A DNA stretch of 64,000 bases from positions 1-64,000 of the forward strand of contig JAEUUL010000024.1 of NCBI GenBank assembly GCA_016787485.1. The letters run 5' to 3'. Every line of letters starts with the position of its first letter. Position 1 is the first letter of the stretch. The DNA comes from Bacteroidota bacterium (GTDB lineage Bacteria > Bacteroidota > Bacteroidia > NS11-12g > UBA955). The notes beneath the pieces were generated by a model, which saw only the letters and a list, made by a program, of their open reading frames with translations, was not told the DNA's origin and ran no database searches. Shown here piece by piece: positions 35,210 to 39,685 of the stretch. A program made the position numbers and the translations under genes.

Positions 35210-36739
35210 ATGAACAAGATGCGTTTTGTACAATCAACCGGATTGTGGGGCCTGGCAGCCGTAATGGTGCTGGGTGCCTGCGGGCCTAAGAACAACAGCA
35301 AAACCACAGGCCAGGCCTACAACAACCCTAAGTGGGGCGGCTTTGCCAATCCCAAATACAAGGGCCAGGAAACCGGTCCGGGTTTGGTGCTGATTGAAGG
35401 CGGTGCTTACACCATGGGTTCTACTGAAAAAGATCTTCAGTATGACAATAACAATGTGGAACGCAACGTAACCGTGAACTCCTTTTATATGGACGAAACG
35501 GAAGTGAGCAATCTGCAATACCGTGAGTATGTGTACTGGCTGGCCAAGACTTTTGTGGATTATCCCGAAGTTTATCAGCGCGCCTTGCCTGATACCAACT
35601 GCTGGCGCAGCAAACTCGGCTATAATGAGCCTTTTGTGGAATATTACTACCGCCACCCTGCCTATAAAGACTATCCTGTAGTGGGTGTAAACTGGCAGCA
35701 GGCTGCCGATTACGCTTCCTGGCGTACCGACCGGGTAAATGAAATGATTCTGGACCGTGAAGGCATCATTAAATACAATGTAACTGCAGATGCTGCCGGC
35801 GAAAACAACTTCAACACCCGTGCTTATCTGGCAAATCAGTACGACTTTCTGAAAAAGGGTAAAAAGCCCCTGAAAGATTATAGCAAAACGAAGAAAAAAG
35901 ACAGCAAACGCACCCGTGTTATCATGGAAGACGGAATTATGCTGCCTGAATACCGTTTGCCTACAGAGGCAGAATGGGAATACGCTGCACAGGGAAACAT
36001 TGGAGAAACCCAGTTTGACAACGTAGATCAGAAGAAAATTTACAGTTGGGATGATTATACCCTTCGCATTAAAGAAGGTAAAGAACGCGACCGCGGTAAG
36101 ATTCGCCTGAATGCCATGCGTGCAAAAGGTGATATGGGTGGTTTGGCCGGTGGAAACCTCAACGACGCAGGTTTTATCACCACACCAGTATACAGCTACT
36201 GGCCAAACAGCTATGGTCTGTATAACATGGCCGGCAATGTAAGTGAGTGGACCATGGATGTGTTCCGCCCCTTGTCTCTGGAAGATATGGACCAGTTCAT
36301 GCCTTTCCGCGGAAACGTATACAAAACCGTTCTGCTGGATCAGTATGGTGCCATTGAAGCCAAAGATTCACTGGGTCGTCTGCAATACCGCGACGTAACT
36401 GAAAAGGAGAATGCAAACCGTCGCAACTACCGCAAGGCTGACAACATTGGTTTCAAAGATGAAGACAACTATAACAACGGTGAAATGACCTATGAATATG
36501 GTGTGACTTCTCTGGTGAACAACAAAGCCCGCGTAATTAAAGGTGCAAGCTGGAATGACCGTATTTACTGGGCATCTCCCGGCACCCGCCGCTACCTGGA
36601 TGAAAAACAGGATCTCTCCACTCTCGGTTTCCGTTGTGCAATGATCCGCATCGGCGCACCTGTAGGTAACAGCAAGAAGCGTTACAACAAACTGCCTTCT
36701 TCAGGTATTAACAAAAAGACCAAAGCGAAATACAGATAA
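35210..36739 (+). CDS. gldJ: Gliding motility lipoprotein GldJ
   Basis: GldJ is an outer-membrane lipoprotein needed for gliding and for stability of GldK and the T9SS. It has 509 residues from the ATG at 35210; a GTG seven codons earlier and a second ATG three codons later are alternatives. Lipobox VLGAC is at about residue 24. The rest is a formylglycine-generating-enzyme (SUMF1/FGE) fold: GPGLVLIEGGAYTMGSTEKD, FYMDETEVSNLQYREYVYWL, YPVVGVNWQQAADYASWRTDRVNE, YRLPTEAEWEYAAQG, GLYNMAGNVSEWTMDVFRP and GASWNDRIYWASPGTRRYL. The RTDRVNE and MEDGIMLPEYR segments and the basic C-terminal tail fit GldJ better than GldK, and gldLMN do not follow. The porV-porU-gldJ neighbourhood also agrees. Confidence 0.88.
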   Translation: MNKMRFVQSTGLWGLAAVMVLGACGPKNNSKTTGQAYNNPKWGGFANPKYKGQETGPGLVLIEGGAYTMGSTEKDLQYDNNNVERNVTVNSFYMDETEVSNLQYREYVYWLAKTFVDYPEVYQRALPDTNCWRSKLGYNEPFVEYYYRHPAYKDYPVVGVNWQQAADYASWRTDRVNEMILDREGIIKYNVTADAAGENNFNTRAYLANQYDFLKKGKKPLKDYSKTKKKDSKRTRVIMEDGIMLPEYRLPTEAEWEYAAQGNIGETQFDNVDQKKIYSWDDYTLRIKEGKERDRGKIRLNAMRAKGDMGGLAGGNLNDAGFITTPVYSYWPNSYGLYNMAGNVSEWTMDVFRPLSLEDMDQFMPFRGNVYKTVLLDQYGAIEAKDSLGRLQYRDVTEKENANRRNYRKADNIGFKDEDNYNNGEMTYEYGVTSLVNNKARVIKGASWNDRIYWASPGTRRYLDEKQDLSTLGFRCAMIRIGAPVGNSKKRYNKLPSSGINKKTKAKYR

Positions 36740-36758
36740 TTTCGTAAAACATAATTAC

Positions 36759-36792
36759 AAAAGCCGGCCCAGCATAAAGGCCGGCTTTTTTG
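36759..36792 (+). terminator. Terminator of gldJ
   Basis: The stem AAAGCCGGCC / GGCCGGCTTT, with about a 9-nt loop, is followed by a T-run. Very stable. Confidence 0.92.
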
Positions 36793-37071
36793 TGTTGTAT
36801 GCATCTGCTGATGCTCCATTCCGCCAGCAGTCTGTTCGTTTTCATATGCGATGACAAGCTTGCAAGGAAGAATAGGCCGTCGCAGAAGTTTAACCTGCAG
36901 ATACTTCCCGGAAAAAGAATCTCAGAGAAGTAATACAATGCAGATGTCTCCCATTCAAAAGAAAAAATGCCCGAAACGGTGACGGGGTTCTGTAAGTCGG
37001 AAAACGTGTTGCCTGCAATTCTGGAAATACATCACCGATCAGCCAATCAGATTTTGTATTATCCGGGGTAC
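36793..37071. other. Intergenic stretch with no recognisable gene
   Basis: Between the gldJ terminator and the first 53-bp repeat I see only short unrelated open frames on either strand, with no domain, promoter pair or RNA fold that I can support. It may include old sequence left by the cassette next door. Confidence 0.5.
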
Positions 37072-37124
37072 CCCCCCAAAAAGAAAAGCCCCGTTTCCGG
37101 GGCTCTGTGGAGCGAGAAACGAGA
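37072..37124 (-). repeat. 53-bp direct repeat, distal copy: tRNA-Gly 3' end plus terminator
   Basis: Identical over 53 bp to 37462-37514, 390 bp away. On the minus strand it holds the last 17 nt of tRNA-Gly (TCTCGTTTCTCGCTCCA, including CCA) and then the complete terminator hairpin and T-run. This copy is not attached to a tRNA, so it is a duplicated target fragment. Confidence 0.9.
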
Positions 37125-37147
37125 TGCCGACGCTTGCGGTCGTGCAT

Positions 37148-37182
37148 CCCCGATAATCCAATTAGAAATTGGATTCATCGGG
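37148..37182. other. Hairpin over the GIY-YIG stop codon
   Basis: CCCGAT-AATCCAATT pairs with AATTGGATT-C-ATCGGG around an AGA loop: 15 pairs with a single bulge. It spans the nuclease stop codon and has no T-run. It could be a recombination or processing site, or a weak terminator. Confidence 0.5.
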
Positions 37183-37458
37183 ACTCGAACTTGCTGCAGG
37201 AAATTTATTACCCCCGTATTTCTCTACAAATCTCCGCAGTCTTTCAGGGCTATGAAGATTCTTTAATTTCTTTTCAAGTTCAATGGCTTCTTTTCTGCTC
37301 GGCTTTTCTGCATGCCAGACCAATACCCATGGTTTCCAAGCCTTAGTGGATGGATTTAATCCCTGGTTATGAACGGATAACCTATGGTTTAATTCATTGG
37401 TTTGACCTATGTAAAACCGACCTGAGGATGGACTCCATAAAATATAAACAAAATACAT
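37162..37458 (-). CDS. Small GIY-YIG nuclease inserted at tRNA-Gly
   Basis: A 98-residue freestanding GIY-YIG domain protein. Catalytic elements are MYFVYILWS (the GIY strand), RFYIGQT (the YIG strand), NELNHRLSVHNQG with the conserved Arg, and the metal-binding Glu in RKEAIELEKKLKNL. The ATG at 37456-37458 lies only 3 nt after the proximal 53-bp repeat. I see no -7 box for it, so it may depend on read-through past the tRNA terminator. The last nine residues (SSSPDESNF) are encoded by a T-arm-like sequence GTTCGAGTCCCG, as though tRNA sequence had been joined to the frame. Such small proteins are usually annotated only as GIY-YIG family; here the tRNA context suggests a target-specific nuclease. 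Confidence 0.88.
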   Translation of the reverse strand: MYFVYILWSPSSGRFYIGQTNELNHRLSVHNQGLNPSTKAWKPWVLVWHAEKPSRKEAIELEKKLKNLHSPERLRRFVEKYGGNKFPAASSSPDESNF

Positions 37459-37461
37459 CTG

Positions 37462-37514
37462 CCCCCCAAAAAGAAAAGCCCCGTTTCCGGGGCTCTGTGG
37501 AGCGAGAAACGAGA
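37462..37514 (-). repeat. 53-bp direct repeat, proximal copy within tRNA-Gly and its terminator
   Basis: This copy is the real 3' end of tRNA-Gly with its terminator, identical to 37072-37124. The last shared base before divergence falls inside the tRNA T-arm 3' strand. Confidence 0.9.
37468..37494 (-). terminator. Terminator of tRNA-Gly
   Basis: On the minus strand the stem AGCCCCG / CGGGGCT (GAAA loop) is followed by TTTCTTTTT, directly after the tRNA CCA end. A second copy is at 37078-37104. Confidence 0.88.
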
Positions 37515-37573
37515 CTCGAACTCGCGACCCTCACCTTGGCAAGGTGATGCTCTACCAACTGAGCTATTCTCGC
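37498..37573 (-). tRNA. tRNA-Gly (anticodon GCC)
   Basis: 76 nt including an encoded CCA. The acceptor stem GCGAGAA / TTCTCGC is perfect. The D-arm AGCTCAGTTGGTAGAGCA, the anticodon loop TTGCCAA between TCACC and GGTGA, and the T-arm GCGAG-TTCGAGT-CTCGT all fold. Its 3' 17 nt plus terminator are duplicated 390 bp downstream around the GIY-YIG gene. Confidence 0.97.
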
Positions 37574-37606
37574 TTTTTGCAGATGAGGTTCCCCTCAAAA
37601 GCACTG

Positions 37607-37637
37607 CAAAAGTAATGAATGAATAATCACAGGTCAA
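37607..37637 (-). promoter_or_regulatory. Promoter of tRNA-Gly
   Basis: On the minus strand TTG (37635-37637), 20 nt, then TACTTTTG (37607-37614, exact -7 consensus). The tRNA-Lys promoter has the same spacing and the same following bases CAGT. Confidence 0.78.
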
Positions 37638-37661
37638 GTGCTCATTCAAACTTTCCAATAA

Positions 37662-38064
37662 AAAATGGCAGTCCTGTAAGCCGGGTTCTGTTATCCATGC
37701 CACTTGCGCGGCACAGATATTCTATCATTTATCTGGGCCTGACCTCACAGCCAGGCTCAATCAGCCTACCCTCCCGGCCATACTGGCTATGCCAGTAACG
37801 TGGACGGGCAGCCCACATGCCGGGTTTATTTGGCCTTTCAACCCGTAAGGTTTATCCCAATCCCGGCTCGCACCGGAACGAGTGGGCTCTTACCCCGCTG
37901 TTTCACCCTTATCCGGAGTGTGACCTCCGGACGGTTTGGTTTCTGTGACACTTTCTGTCATGATACACTTACGCATACCATGCCTTCCTGTTAGGAAGTA
38001 CGGTGCCCTGTGTTGCCCGGACTTTCCTCTGTGGTGTTACCCACAGCGATAGAACGGACTGCCG
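37662..38064 (-). ncRNA. rnpB: RNase P RNA
   Basis: About 400 nt. The diagnostic block GAGGAAAGTCCGGGC lies near the 5' end, and ACAGAACCCGGCTTACAG, the P4 partner, near the 3' end. The terminal helix P1 pairs GGCAGTCC with GGACTGCC. The central part has the expected GGTAAGAGCCCAC segment. It is the catalytic RNA that trims tRNA 5' leaders. A run of T follows P1 at about 37661. It lies just upstream of tRNA-Gly on the same strand but has its own promoter. Confidence 0.95.
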
Positions 38065-38067
38065 TTG

Positions 38068-38075
38068 CAAAGGTA
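38068..38075 (-). promoter_or_regulatory. -7 box TACCTTTG of rnpB
   Basis: Exact consensus on the minus strand, 3 nt before the predicted RNA 5' end. This fixes how close to the box transcription begins in this genome. Confidence 0.7.
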
Positions 38076-38195
38076 GGCCTTTTTTCAAAACGCTTCTGTC
38101 CGAAGCACTTACAGAAATCCATTGCCCGTGTAAAACTGCAATCTCTGTTGCAATATCTGTTATCTTCCCTATCATGAGGAGTGGGACCCATTCTG

Positions 38196-38203
38196 TATCT
38201 TTG
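38196..38203 (+). promoter_or_regulatory. -7 box TATCTTTG of gatB
   Basis: Exact consensus, 33 nt before the gatB ATG; it probably also drives the following acylation cluster. Confidence 0.6.
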
Positions 38204-38236
38204 CCAGGAATAGCACAGGACTCCTTCCATTATCCC

Positions 38237-39685
38237 ATGAACAATACCGAATTTGAAGCCGTAATCGGGCTTGAAATACATGTACAGTTGCTCACAGCGA
38301 GCAAGGCATTTTCTTCCGACAGTGCTGAATACGGCGGCCTGCCAAACACACAGATCAGTGCTATCAGTCTTGGACACCCCGGCACCCTTCCACGCCACAA
38401 TAAATCTGCTGTGGAAATGGCGGTAAAAATGGGGCTTGCCCTTCATTGCGACATCCGTAAATACAATTCCTACAGCCGTAAAAATTACTTTTACGCGGAT
38501 TTACCCAAAGGTTACCAGATTACCCAATTCGATACCCCATTGTGCAACAACGGTTACGTGCCTATCAGGCTGAAAGACGGCACCCGCAAACAGATCGGAC
38601 TTATCCGCATCCACATGGAAGAAGACACAGGCAAGAGTATGCACGACCAGGACCTTACGGATACGCTGGTAGACTACAACCGTGCCGGTACTCCCCTCAT
38701 TGAAATAGTAAGTGAGCCTGAGATCCGCACCGGTGATGAGGCTTATGCCTTTGTTACCGAAATTCGCAGGCTGGTGCGCTATTTGGGCATTTGCGACGGC
38801 AACATGGAGGAAGGCAGTTTGCGATGCGATGCCAATATCTCTGTAAGACCGCGTGGAACCACGACATTTGGCACCAAGGTGGAAGTGAAAAACATGAATT
38901 CCATCAGCAATGTGAAACGGGCCATTGATTTTGAAATTGCCCGGCAGACCGAGCTTATCTTGTCTGGTGGCACCGTTGTGGGTGAAACCCGCGGATTTAA
39001 TGCCCTGGCGGGCACCACCTTTTCCATGCGCCGAAAAGAACTGGTGAATGATTACCGCTATTTTCCGGAACCGGACCTGCCACCCCTGATTCTAACCGAC
39101 CAGCAGATAGAAGCGGTAAAACACCTGATGCCGGAACTGCCTGATGCCCTGTATGCGAGGTTTACTGAACAATACGGTCTTTCTGAATATGATGCAGGTG
39201 TGCTGGTAGACGATAAACACACTGCTTTGTATTACGAAAATCTGGTAAGACATACCAGCAATTATAAAGCAGCTGCCAACTGGGTTTCTGTTGCCATACG
39301 CGGATATCTGAATGAACAGGCTATGGGGATGGAAGATTTTTCACTTCAGCCCGAAAAAATAGCAGATATTATACATCTGATAGACAAAGGCGTACTCAGC
39401 CATAGTGCGGCTGTGCAAAAACTATTTCCTGCCATGGTGCAGGACCCGGCGGTTTCGGCCGAAGAATGGGTGCAAAAACTGAATCTGGTGCAAAATACAG
39501 ACAACGATTTTATCGAAAAACTTGCAGATGAAGTGCTGGCTTCCATGCCCGAAAAAGTGGCAGAGTACCGCAATGGAAAAACCGGACTCCTGGGTCTGTT
39601 TGTTGGCGAAGTGATGAAGTTGAGCAAGGGTAAAGCAGAGCCGCGCAAAACAAACGAAGTGATTCGCCGCAAACTGGACGCATGA
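38237..39685 (+). CDS. gatB: Asp-tRNA(Asn)/Glu-tRNA(Gln) amidotransferase subunit B
   Basis: GatB is the kinase-like subunit of the GatCAB complex that makes Gln-tRNA and Asn-tRNA by amidating misacylated precursors. It has 482 residues from the ATG at 38237 (MNNTEFEAVIGLEIHVQLLT); the open frame upstream covers rnpB and is rejected. Hallmarks include LGHPGTLPRHNKSAVEMAVKMG, YADLPKGYQITQFDTP, RIHMEEDTGKS, VDYNRAGTPLIEIVSEPEI and SLRCDANISVRPRG. The C-terminal GatB/Yqey tail domain is present (VLASMPEKVAEYRNGKTGLLGLFVGEVMKLSKGKAEP). Its stop overlaps the start of the ligase (ATGA), linking translation of a housekeeping gene to the acylation cluster. Confidence 0.96.
   Translation: MNNTEFEAVIGLEIHVQLLTASKAFSSDSAEYGGLPNTQISAISLGHPGTLPRHNKSAVEMAVKMGLALHCDIRKYNSYSRKNYFYADLPKGYQITQFDTPLCNNGYVPIRLKDGTRKQIGLIRIHMEEDTGKSMHDQDLTDTLVDYNRAGTPLIEIVSEPEIRTGDEAYAFVTEIRRLVRYLGICDGNMEEGSLRCDANISVRPRGTTTFGTKVEVKNMNSISNVKRAIDFEIARQTELILSGGTVVGETRGFNALAGTTFSMRRKELVNDYRYFPEPDLPPLILTDQQIEAVKHLMPELPDALYARFTEQYGLSEYDAGVLVDDKHTALYYENLVRHTSNYKAAANWVSVAIRGYLNEQAMGMEDFSLQPEKIADIIHLIDKGVLSHSAAVQKLFPAMVQDPAVSAEEWVQKLNLVQNTDNDFIEKLADEVLASMPEKVAEYRNGKTGLLGLFVGEVMKLSKGKAEPRKTNEVIRRKLDA

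Follow-up and report, generated by a model that had tools for sequence, protein, structure and literature searches.

Candidate tRNA-rebuilding homing cassettes carrying a small GIY-YIG nuclease at tRNA genes of Bacteroidota

Fungal mitochondria harbour mobile ORFs, described in Allomyces atp6 and in Glomus atp6, atp9, cox2 and nad3, that are associated with duplicated gene ends (PMC3630166). In these systems, as at the locus described here, an endonuclease ORF inserts into a gene, a new 3′ end rebuilds that gene, and the native end is displaced downstream (PMC3630166), which by analogy makes them the closest in logic to the bacterial cassette. The cassette works like a mitochondrial mobile ORF but is not a member of that group: the fungal elements target mitochondrial protein genes, the Glomus atp6 case encodes a LAGLIDADG enzyme, and no junction hairpin has been described for them (PMC3630166), whereas the cassette belongs to a bacterial family that extends across a phylum and follows tRNA identity, and it encodes a UPF0213-type GIY-YIG protein. 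A second point of comparison is SegB of phage T4, a free-standing GIY-YIG homing endonuclease in a tRNA cluster (PMC2988022). The Seg enzymes share with the cassette a free-standing GIY-YIG domain and an association with tRNA genes, and spread by cutting and repair; SegB, however, lies between tRNA genes, has an intergenic target, is phage-borne and shows neither a duplicated tRNA half nor junction hairpins (PMC2988022).

Three further comparisons are instructive. Integrase elements at tRNA sites (integrative and conjugative elements, satellites and islands) likewise flank their insert with a tRNA 3′-end repeat and rebuild the tRNA, but the cassette has no integrase, measures only 300–390 bp, varies its insertion point with the type of tRNA and also occurs in upstream versions. 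Group I introns with homing endonucleases in tRNA genes are also selfish insertions that spare the tRNA; the cassette, in contrast, has no ribozyme and no splicing, and the gene is repaired by sequence duplication. Finally, proteins of the UPF0213/SLX1 type are closest to the cassette nuclease in sequence and fold, yet these belong to the host or act in repair, with neither a known link to tRNA genes nor a duplicated target. The 2006 survey of the GIY-YIG superfamily (PMC1564403) mentions neither "Bacteroid*" nor "UPF0213" and reports no link to tRNA genes, and a search of the open-access journal literature returned no account of bacterial tRNA-rebuilding GIY-YIG cassettes. Relative to known systems, the cassette would place homing and the rebuilding of its target in new surroundings and add a new part, the junction hairpin.

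The locus lies in a 64-kb stretch of DNA from a Bacteroidota bacterium, hereafter the window. A preliminary description had reported a perfect 53-bp direct repeat, consisting of the last 17 nt of tRNA-Gly and a terminator, around a single 98-residue GIY-YIG gene and lacking any integrase, and each of these points held on re-examination. The two copies are identical at 53/53 positions with a spacing of 390 bp, and they form the only exact repeat of at least 30 bp in the window, excluding a chance origin; ARAGORN and Rfam place the tRNA portion, TCTCGTTTCTCGCTCCA, at the end of the tRNA gene. The features of the locus are as follows.

37498–37573, minus strand: intact tRNA-Gly(GCC), the putative invaded and rebuilt target (ARAGORN; Rfam tRNA, 70.7 bits)
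37462–37514, minus strand: tRNA-proximal 53-bp copy, comprising the 17-nt tRNA end (within the intact tRNA) and an intrinsic terminator (repeat search, 53/53)
37162–37458, minus strand: GIY-YIG nuclease gene, 98 aa (Pfam PF01541, E=1.2e-17; UPF0213/SLX1 relatives in the PDB; AF2 model, pLDDT 90)
37184–37194, minus strand: T-arm fragment of the pseudo-tRNA, GCAAGTTCGAG (GCGAGTTCGAG in the intact gene), ending at the insertion point (direct repeat D2)
37147–37183, minus strand: hairpin 1, TCCCGATGAATCC...ATCGGGGA (fold −18.7 kcal/mol; region z = −3.4)
37125–37146, minus strand: hairpin 2, TGCACGAC...GTCGGCA, abutting the distal repeat (fold analysis and sequence)
37072–37124, minus strand: distal 53-bp copy, the displaced tRNA 3′ end and terminator (repeat search)

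In our model, the proximal copy is the left end of the inserted unit. The nuclease gene starts 3 nt past this copy, and its C-terminus, SSSPDESNF, is translated from the pseudo-tRNA and hairpin sequence. Read on the tRNA strand from the 3′ end of the gene onward, the order is GCAAGTTCGAG, the two hairpins, TCTCGTTTCTCGCTCCA and the terminator, where the intact tRNA-Gly has GCGAGTTCGAG-TCTCGTTTCTCGCTCCA; in the distal copy, two hairpins thus interrupt a tRNA T-arm. The junction, read from the sequence, shows the 53-bp repeat beginning precisely at the hairpin end. With room for one gene only, the 390-bp unit encodes the GIY-YIG protein and neither a tyrosine nor a serine integrase. A group I intron was dismissed as an explanation, there being no Rfam intron match to a ribozyme core in 36500–38500 at E≤1. 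The gene for class A RNase P RNA (37661–38065) lies 87 bp upstream of the tRNA-Gly, in a neighbourhood conserved in the family.

We interpret this locus as a site-specific, tRNA-rebuilding homing cassette, a member of a Bacteroidota-wide family of tiny mobile units, and assign this reading a probability of roughly 0.65. Each unit would enter one particular tRNA gene at a fixed point, and its leading copy of the tRNA segment 3′ of that point would rebuild the interrupted tRNA at once; behind this copy would follow the GIY-YIG gene, then tRNA-like sequence that ends in one or two hairpins, and finally the native 3′ end of the tRNA, now displaced. In a mirror-image type, the nuclease would lie upstream and the 5′ part of the tRNA would be resupplied. 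We infer that the nuclease cuts unoccupied tRNA genes at or near the insertion point, and that repair of the break uses an occupied copy as template and the tRNA halves as homology arms, so that the unit is copied in; as these arms consist of tRNA sequence, homology, and not the enzyme alone, could account for part of the specificity. In the displaced copy, the hairpins split the target and may protect it against cutting, while renewed cutting of the rebuilt tRNA could add adjoining units, giving tandem arrays. The rebuilt tRNA would, however, still hold the putative target, which counts against homing. It is possible that the host is spared by low expression of the nuclease behind the terminator, yet the gene directly follows the tRNA in some loci.

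The neighbourhood of gldJ, tRNA-Gly, RNase P RNA and gatB is kept, with a plain tRNA, in about 29 relatives, in which alignment to the window locus starts from the terminator within the proximal copy of the repeat. Genera other than the one designated g11 have the gene order of the window; in g11, the block of tRNA-Gly and RNase P RNA is inverted between gldJ and gatB (L159–L165, compared with window 36700–38100). A GIY-YIG gene at the orthologous tRNA-Gly of a second genus (genome G024, locus L007) was set aside as not being the same insertion: in oriented positions 352–960, a gene for a distant GIY-YIG protein follows an imperfect tandem repeat (ATCCGGACACTGCGCAGCAG...), and there is no tRNA tail copy.

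Occupied and empty alleles of a nuclease in or beside its target, as expected of free-standing homing endonucleases, were found among congeners at other tRNA genes. In genus g11, the tRNA-Asp locus is occupied in three genomes (G035, G037 and G038) and empty in two (G034 and G036), with one 342-bp unit missing from G034 relative to G035 and the flanks aligned on both sides. In genus g61, a 300-bp insertion in tRNA-Ser(TGA) of genome G107 is absent from all seven congeners checked (7/7, both flanks aligned), whose T-loop reads GGTTCGAATCCC. The occupied locus consists of the rebuilt tRNA-Ser, the gene, GGGGTTC, two hairpins, GAATCCC and the native terminator, with the insertion point at TTC^GAA; that this terminator, after the distal copy, is the native one is evident from the seven empty congeners. 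Occupied and unoccupied loci also occur at tRNA-Leu in genus g4, although flank divergence there is too high for an exact boundary. The empty tRNA-Gly loci that the preliminary description proposed to look for exist, and we saw neither relatives that had lost only part of the unit nor vertical conservation of the nuclease without empty sites.

An alternative that we consider unlikely is that the host owns these structures: an old tRNA duplication with a nuclease in its spacer, of which one copy decayed, with arrays arising by unequal crossing over and the nuclease, inherited vertically with frequent loss, serving the host, for example by resolving structures at tRNA genes. The repeats are indeed identical, terminators included, and together with the identical tandem units they resemble plain duplication. 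In genus g11, moreover, cassette and flanks have diverged about equally, which fits an old vertical presence with loss there and counts against homing. Against a host duplication stand the patchy occupancy and the many empty orthologous sites. The tRNA-Ser case is also difficult for it, as only a piece of the gene is duplicated and the native terminator lies distally, which argues for insertion and not duplication of a whole gene.

Relatives of the cassette are widespread, and a check proposed in the preliminary description, for the same nuclease at other tRNA genes, came out positive at many of them. Two further such loci are present in the same genome: at tRNA-Arg(ACG), a relative directly follows the tRNA and is accompanied by a 52-bp copy of the tRNA end and terminator, and at tRNA-Cys, a relative precedes the tRNA, with 39/40 nt of the tRNA 5′ half repeated upstream. 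At the level of the family, such genes were found in 15/70 genomes, mostly beside tRNA genes of many kinds. A search of the phylum, which we take to be Bacteroidota in the GTDB sense, using a profile (A1) built from 24 proteins, detected relatives in 128/198 near-complete genomes, with up to 22 per genome and often in tandem units.

Next, we examined 122 loci sampled by protein score alone, about eight of which are repeats of one site. A same-strand tRNA was present within 500 bp in 100 of these protein-chosen loci, and in none of the 122 was the nearest tRNA within 500 bp on the opposite strand. A 4-Mb genome has some 45 tRNA genes, so that linkage to a tRNA is expected by chance in about 1% of cases. 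The tRNA lies upstream of the nuclease in 81 of the 100 linked loci (type I, like the window) and downstream in 19 (type II, the mirror image); the remaining loci of the sample are mainly at contig ends, in long arrays or without a detected tRNA. At three loci with tRNA-Ser or tRNA-Pro (L057, L116 and L118), the start codon of the nuclease lies at most one base past the last base of the tRNA with no terminator between them, which requires a common transcript for tRNA and mRNA. Draft contigs often stop in or near cassettes (L079, L080, L109, L110, L111, L116 and others), and the number of cassettes in draft genomes is therefore probably underestimated. No copy of the cassette was matched in phages, a search of IMG/VR viral contigs with the tRNA-Met lineage returned no match, and plasmids gave a single weak match, in Rhizobium; this absence of phage and viral copies, along with only one weak plasmid match, counts against the homing-cassette reading.

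In a tree of 139 nucleases, lineages track tRNA identity across host families: counting one row per genome and tRNA, the tRNA isotype changes 36 times on the tree, compared with a mean of 70 and a minimum of 65 when shuffled, while host family is less clustered (54 versus 66). When the tRNA-Met (initiator) lineage was used as the query, 80 loci were recovered from named genomes, 68 with a tRNA in reach, and in 67/68 of these tRNA-bearing loci there was a tRNA-Met(CAT) on the same strand; the tRNA-Met loci with printed sequence are mostly of the initiator type. Their hosts include Bacteroidota, Balneolota, Rhodothermota, Ignavibacteriota and KSB1. Three occupied tRNA-Met copies in Niabella ginsengisoli were set aside because the surrounding 3.5–4.2 kb is duplicated at 99%. 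With regard to horizontal spread, lineages cross host families and phyla, but 84 aa resolve few branches of the tree and one genus fits vertical descent. In Pedobacter, several distinct nuclease lineages occupy the same tRNA within one genus, which also speaks against a duplication owned by the host.

The insertion point is constant within each tRNA type. Thirty loci, almost all at tRNA-Met, have it 27 nt from the tRNA 3′ end (AAGGT^C); it lies at GGTTC^GAATC in tRNA-Ser, at GTTCG^AG in tRNA-Asp and some tRNA-Gly, and at TCGAG^TCTCG in the window; elsewhere, insertion points also fall in the variable and D-loop regions, and there are upstream insertions. A tail copy could be measured in 78 type I cassettes; in 61 of them the end of a hairpin lies at most 2 nt from the start of the repeat, compared with 1 in the shuffled control; the window, whose hairpin 2 is imperfect, is not part of this strictly filtered count. 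A breakpoint that is fixed for each tRNA type and abuts a hairpin is a further argument against host duplication. Hairpins number 80, against 3.5 expected, and begin with T and end with A in 67/80 cases; at tRNA-Met, their pairing is retained by a few compensatory changes, for example from TCCGCC/GGCGGA to TCCGTT/AACGGA. A dispersed family of mobile palindromes was dismissed as the source of the hairpins, the palindrome TCCCGAT...ATCGGGA occurring only 0–9 times per genome.

The hairpins could instead point to transposition, with the GIY-YIG protein recognising them as mobile ends and transferring strands directly into tRNA loops without repair-based homing. Their position exactly at the junction, the pairing kept through a few compensatory changes and the resemblance of the protein to the structure-specific SLX1 would all agree with this proposal. 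We nevertheless regard it as improbable, given that there is no such hairpin at the left ends and that the rebuilt tRNA segment is more simply explained by homology-based repair; moreover, GIY-YIG enzymes are, to our knowledge, hydrolytic nucleases and not known transposases. Very improbable, in our assessment, is a non-autonomous integrative element that uses the tRNA 3′ end as attachment site and an integrase encoded elsewhere, with the nuclease as cargo. Such an element would share its tRNA 3′-end anatomy with the cassette, and the unit does lack an integrase of its own, but the nuclease is the one constant gene and follows tRNA identity across families, unlike cargo, and attachment sites of this kind have no hairpin ends, nor would they account for insertions in variable and D-loop regions or upstream.

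Arrays of the cassette show a polarity. Where the two ends of an array are unlike, the tRNA-adjacent unit is whole and the far unit broken in 24 cases, with the reverse in 4 (p = 2e-4; the count includes a few duplicates and contig ends), which fits growth at the tRNA. One array (locus L065; genome G122, contig C34:5500–11500) comprises eight units whose nucleases belong to the tRNA-Met lineage, and no tRNA was detected in the 6 kb examined. Short tandem tRNA-like fragments, in units of about 70–107 bp, flank an intact tRNA at four further loci (L123, oriented positions 1400–1950; L058; L109; L110); some units are broken in the anticodon loop and there is no nuclease in each, and these arrays are perhaps remnants or a nuclease-less form. 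That the split pseudo-tRNA is a functional RNA, a decoy or processing signal, with the nuclease acting on tRNA or its precursors, is highly improbable: hairpins and tRNA arms are retained, and at loci without a terminator a single transcript may span the tRNA, the gene and the pseudo-tRNA, but the pseudo-tRNA is often partial, the hairpin position depends on the lineage, and empty sites, arrays and mirror-image units would go unexplained.

The protein itself meets the fold and catalytic-residue definition of the GIY-YIG superfamily (UPF0213/SLX1-like). Tyr5, Tyr16, Gly18, His30 and Glu62 are invariant and Arg26 is near-invariant among 24 relatives, which would fit an active enzyme. Its nearest solved relatives are a UPF0213 protein (1zg2, E=2.4e-15), which is also the best PDB match of the predicted model, and SLX1 (E from 5e-8); that these nearest relatives are structure-specific nucleases would suit a host function. 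At 80–100 aa, these proteins consist of the catalytic domain and a short tail, with no recognisable separate DNA-binding domain, and a bare catalytic domain whose nearest solved relatives are not sequence-specific homing enzymes counts against homing. The median dN/dS is 0.16, and all 253 pairs tested lie at about 0.5 or less, indicating purifying selection on the nuclease although the units are dispensable.

At the level of sequence, then, the anatomy, the empty sites, the fixed hairpin-adjacent insertion point, the tie between nuclease lineage and tRNA, and the purifying selection are established. The minimal tRNA-rebuilding homing element proposed in the preliminary description gains support from the empty loci and from the nuclease at other tRNA genes, while its cleavage of tRNA DNA and its homing are inferred. 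Beyond that single-locus view, the family adds a hairpin-split pseudo-tRNA, a mirror-image architecture, tandem arrays and an insertion point fixed for each tRNA type. We suggest, tentatively, that these units might form a distinct class of mobile DNA: integrase-free and hairpin-ended, 300–390 bp long, with a bare GIY-YIG domain, one fixed position in a tRNA loop, a tRNA rebuilt from the carried half and tandem arrays at the tRNA, in which the hairpin would both mark the end of the element and confer immunity to re-cutting.

If the homing-cassette reading is right, these units would be among the most widespread selfish elements of Bacteroidota, overlooked because they measure 300–390 bp, lie in tRNA spacers and leave the tRNA working. 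They would account for odd tRNA fragments and for the C-terminal tails that small GIY-YIG proteins of the phylum derive from tRNA sequence, and would constitute a natural set of site-specific cutters sorted by tRNA, whose target specificity the nuclease lineages and fixed breakpoints make directly testable. They would also illustrate how a minimal nuclease is able to persist within essential genes and leave them intact.
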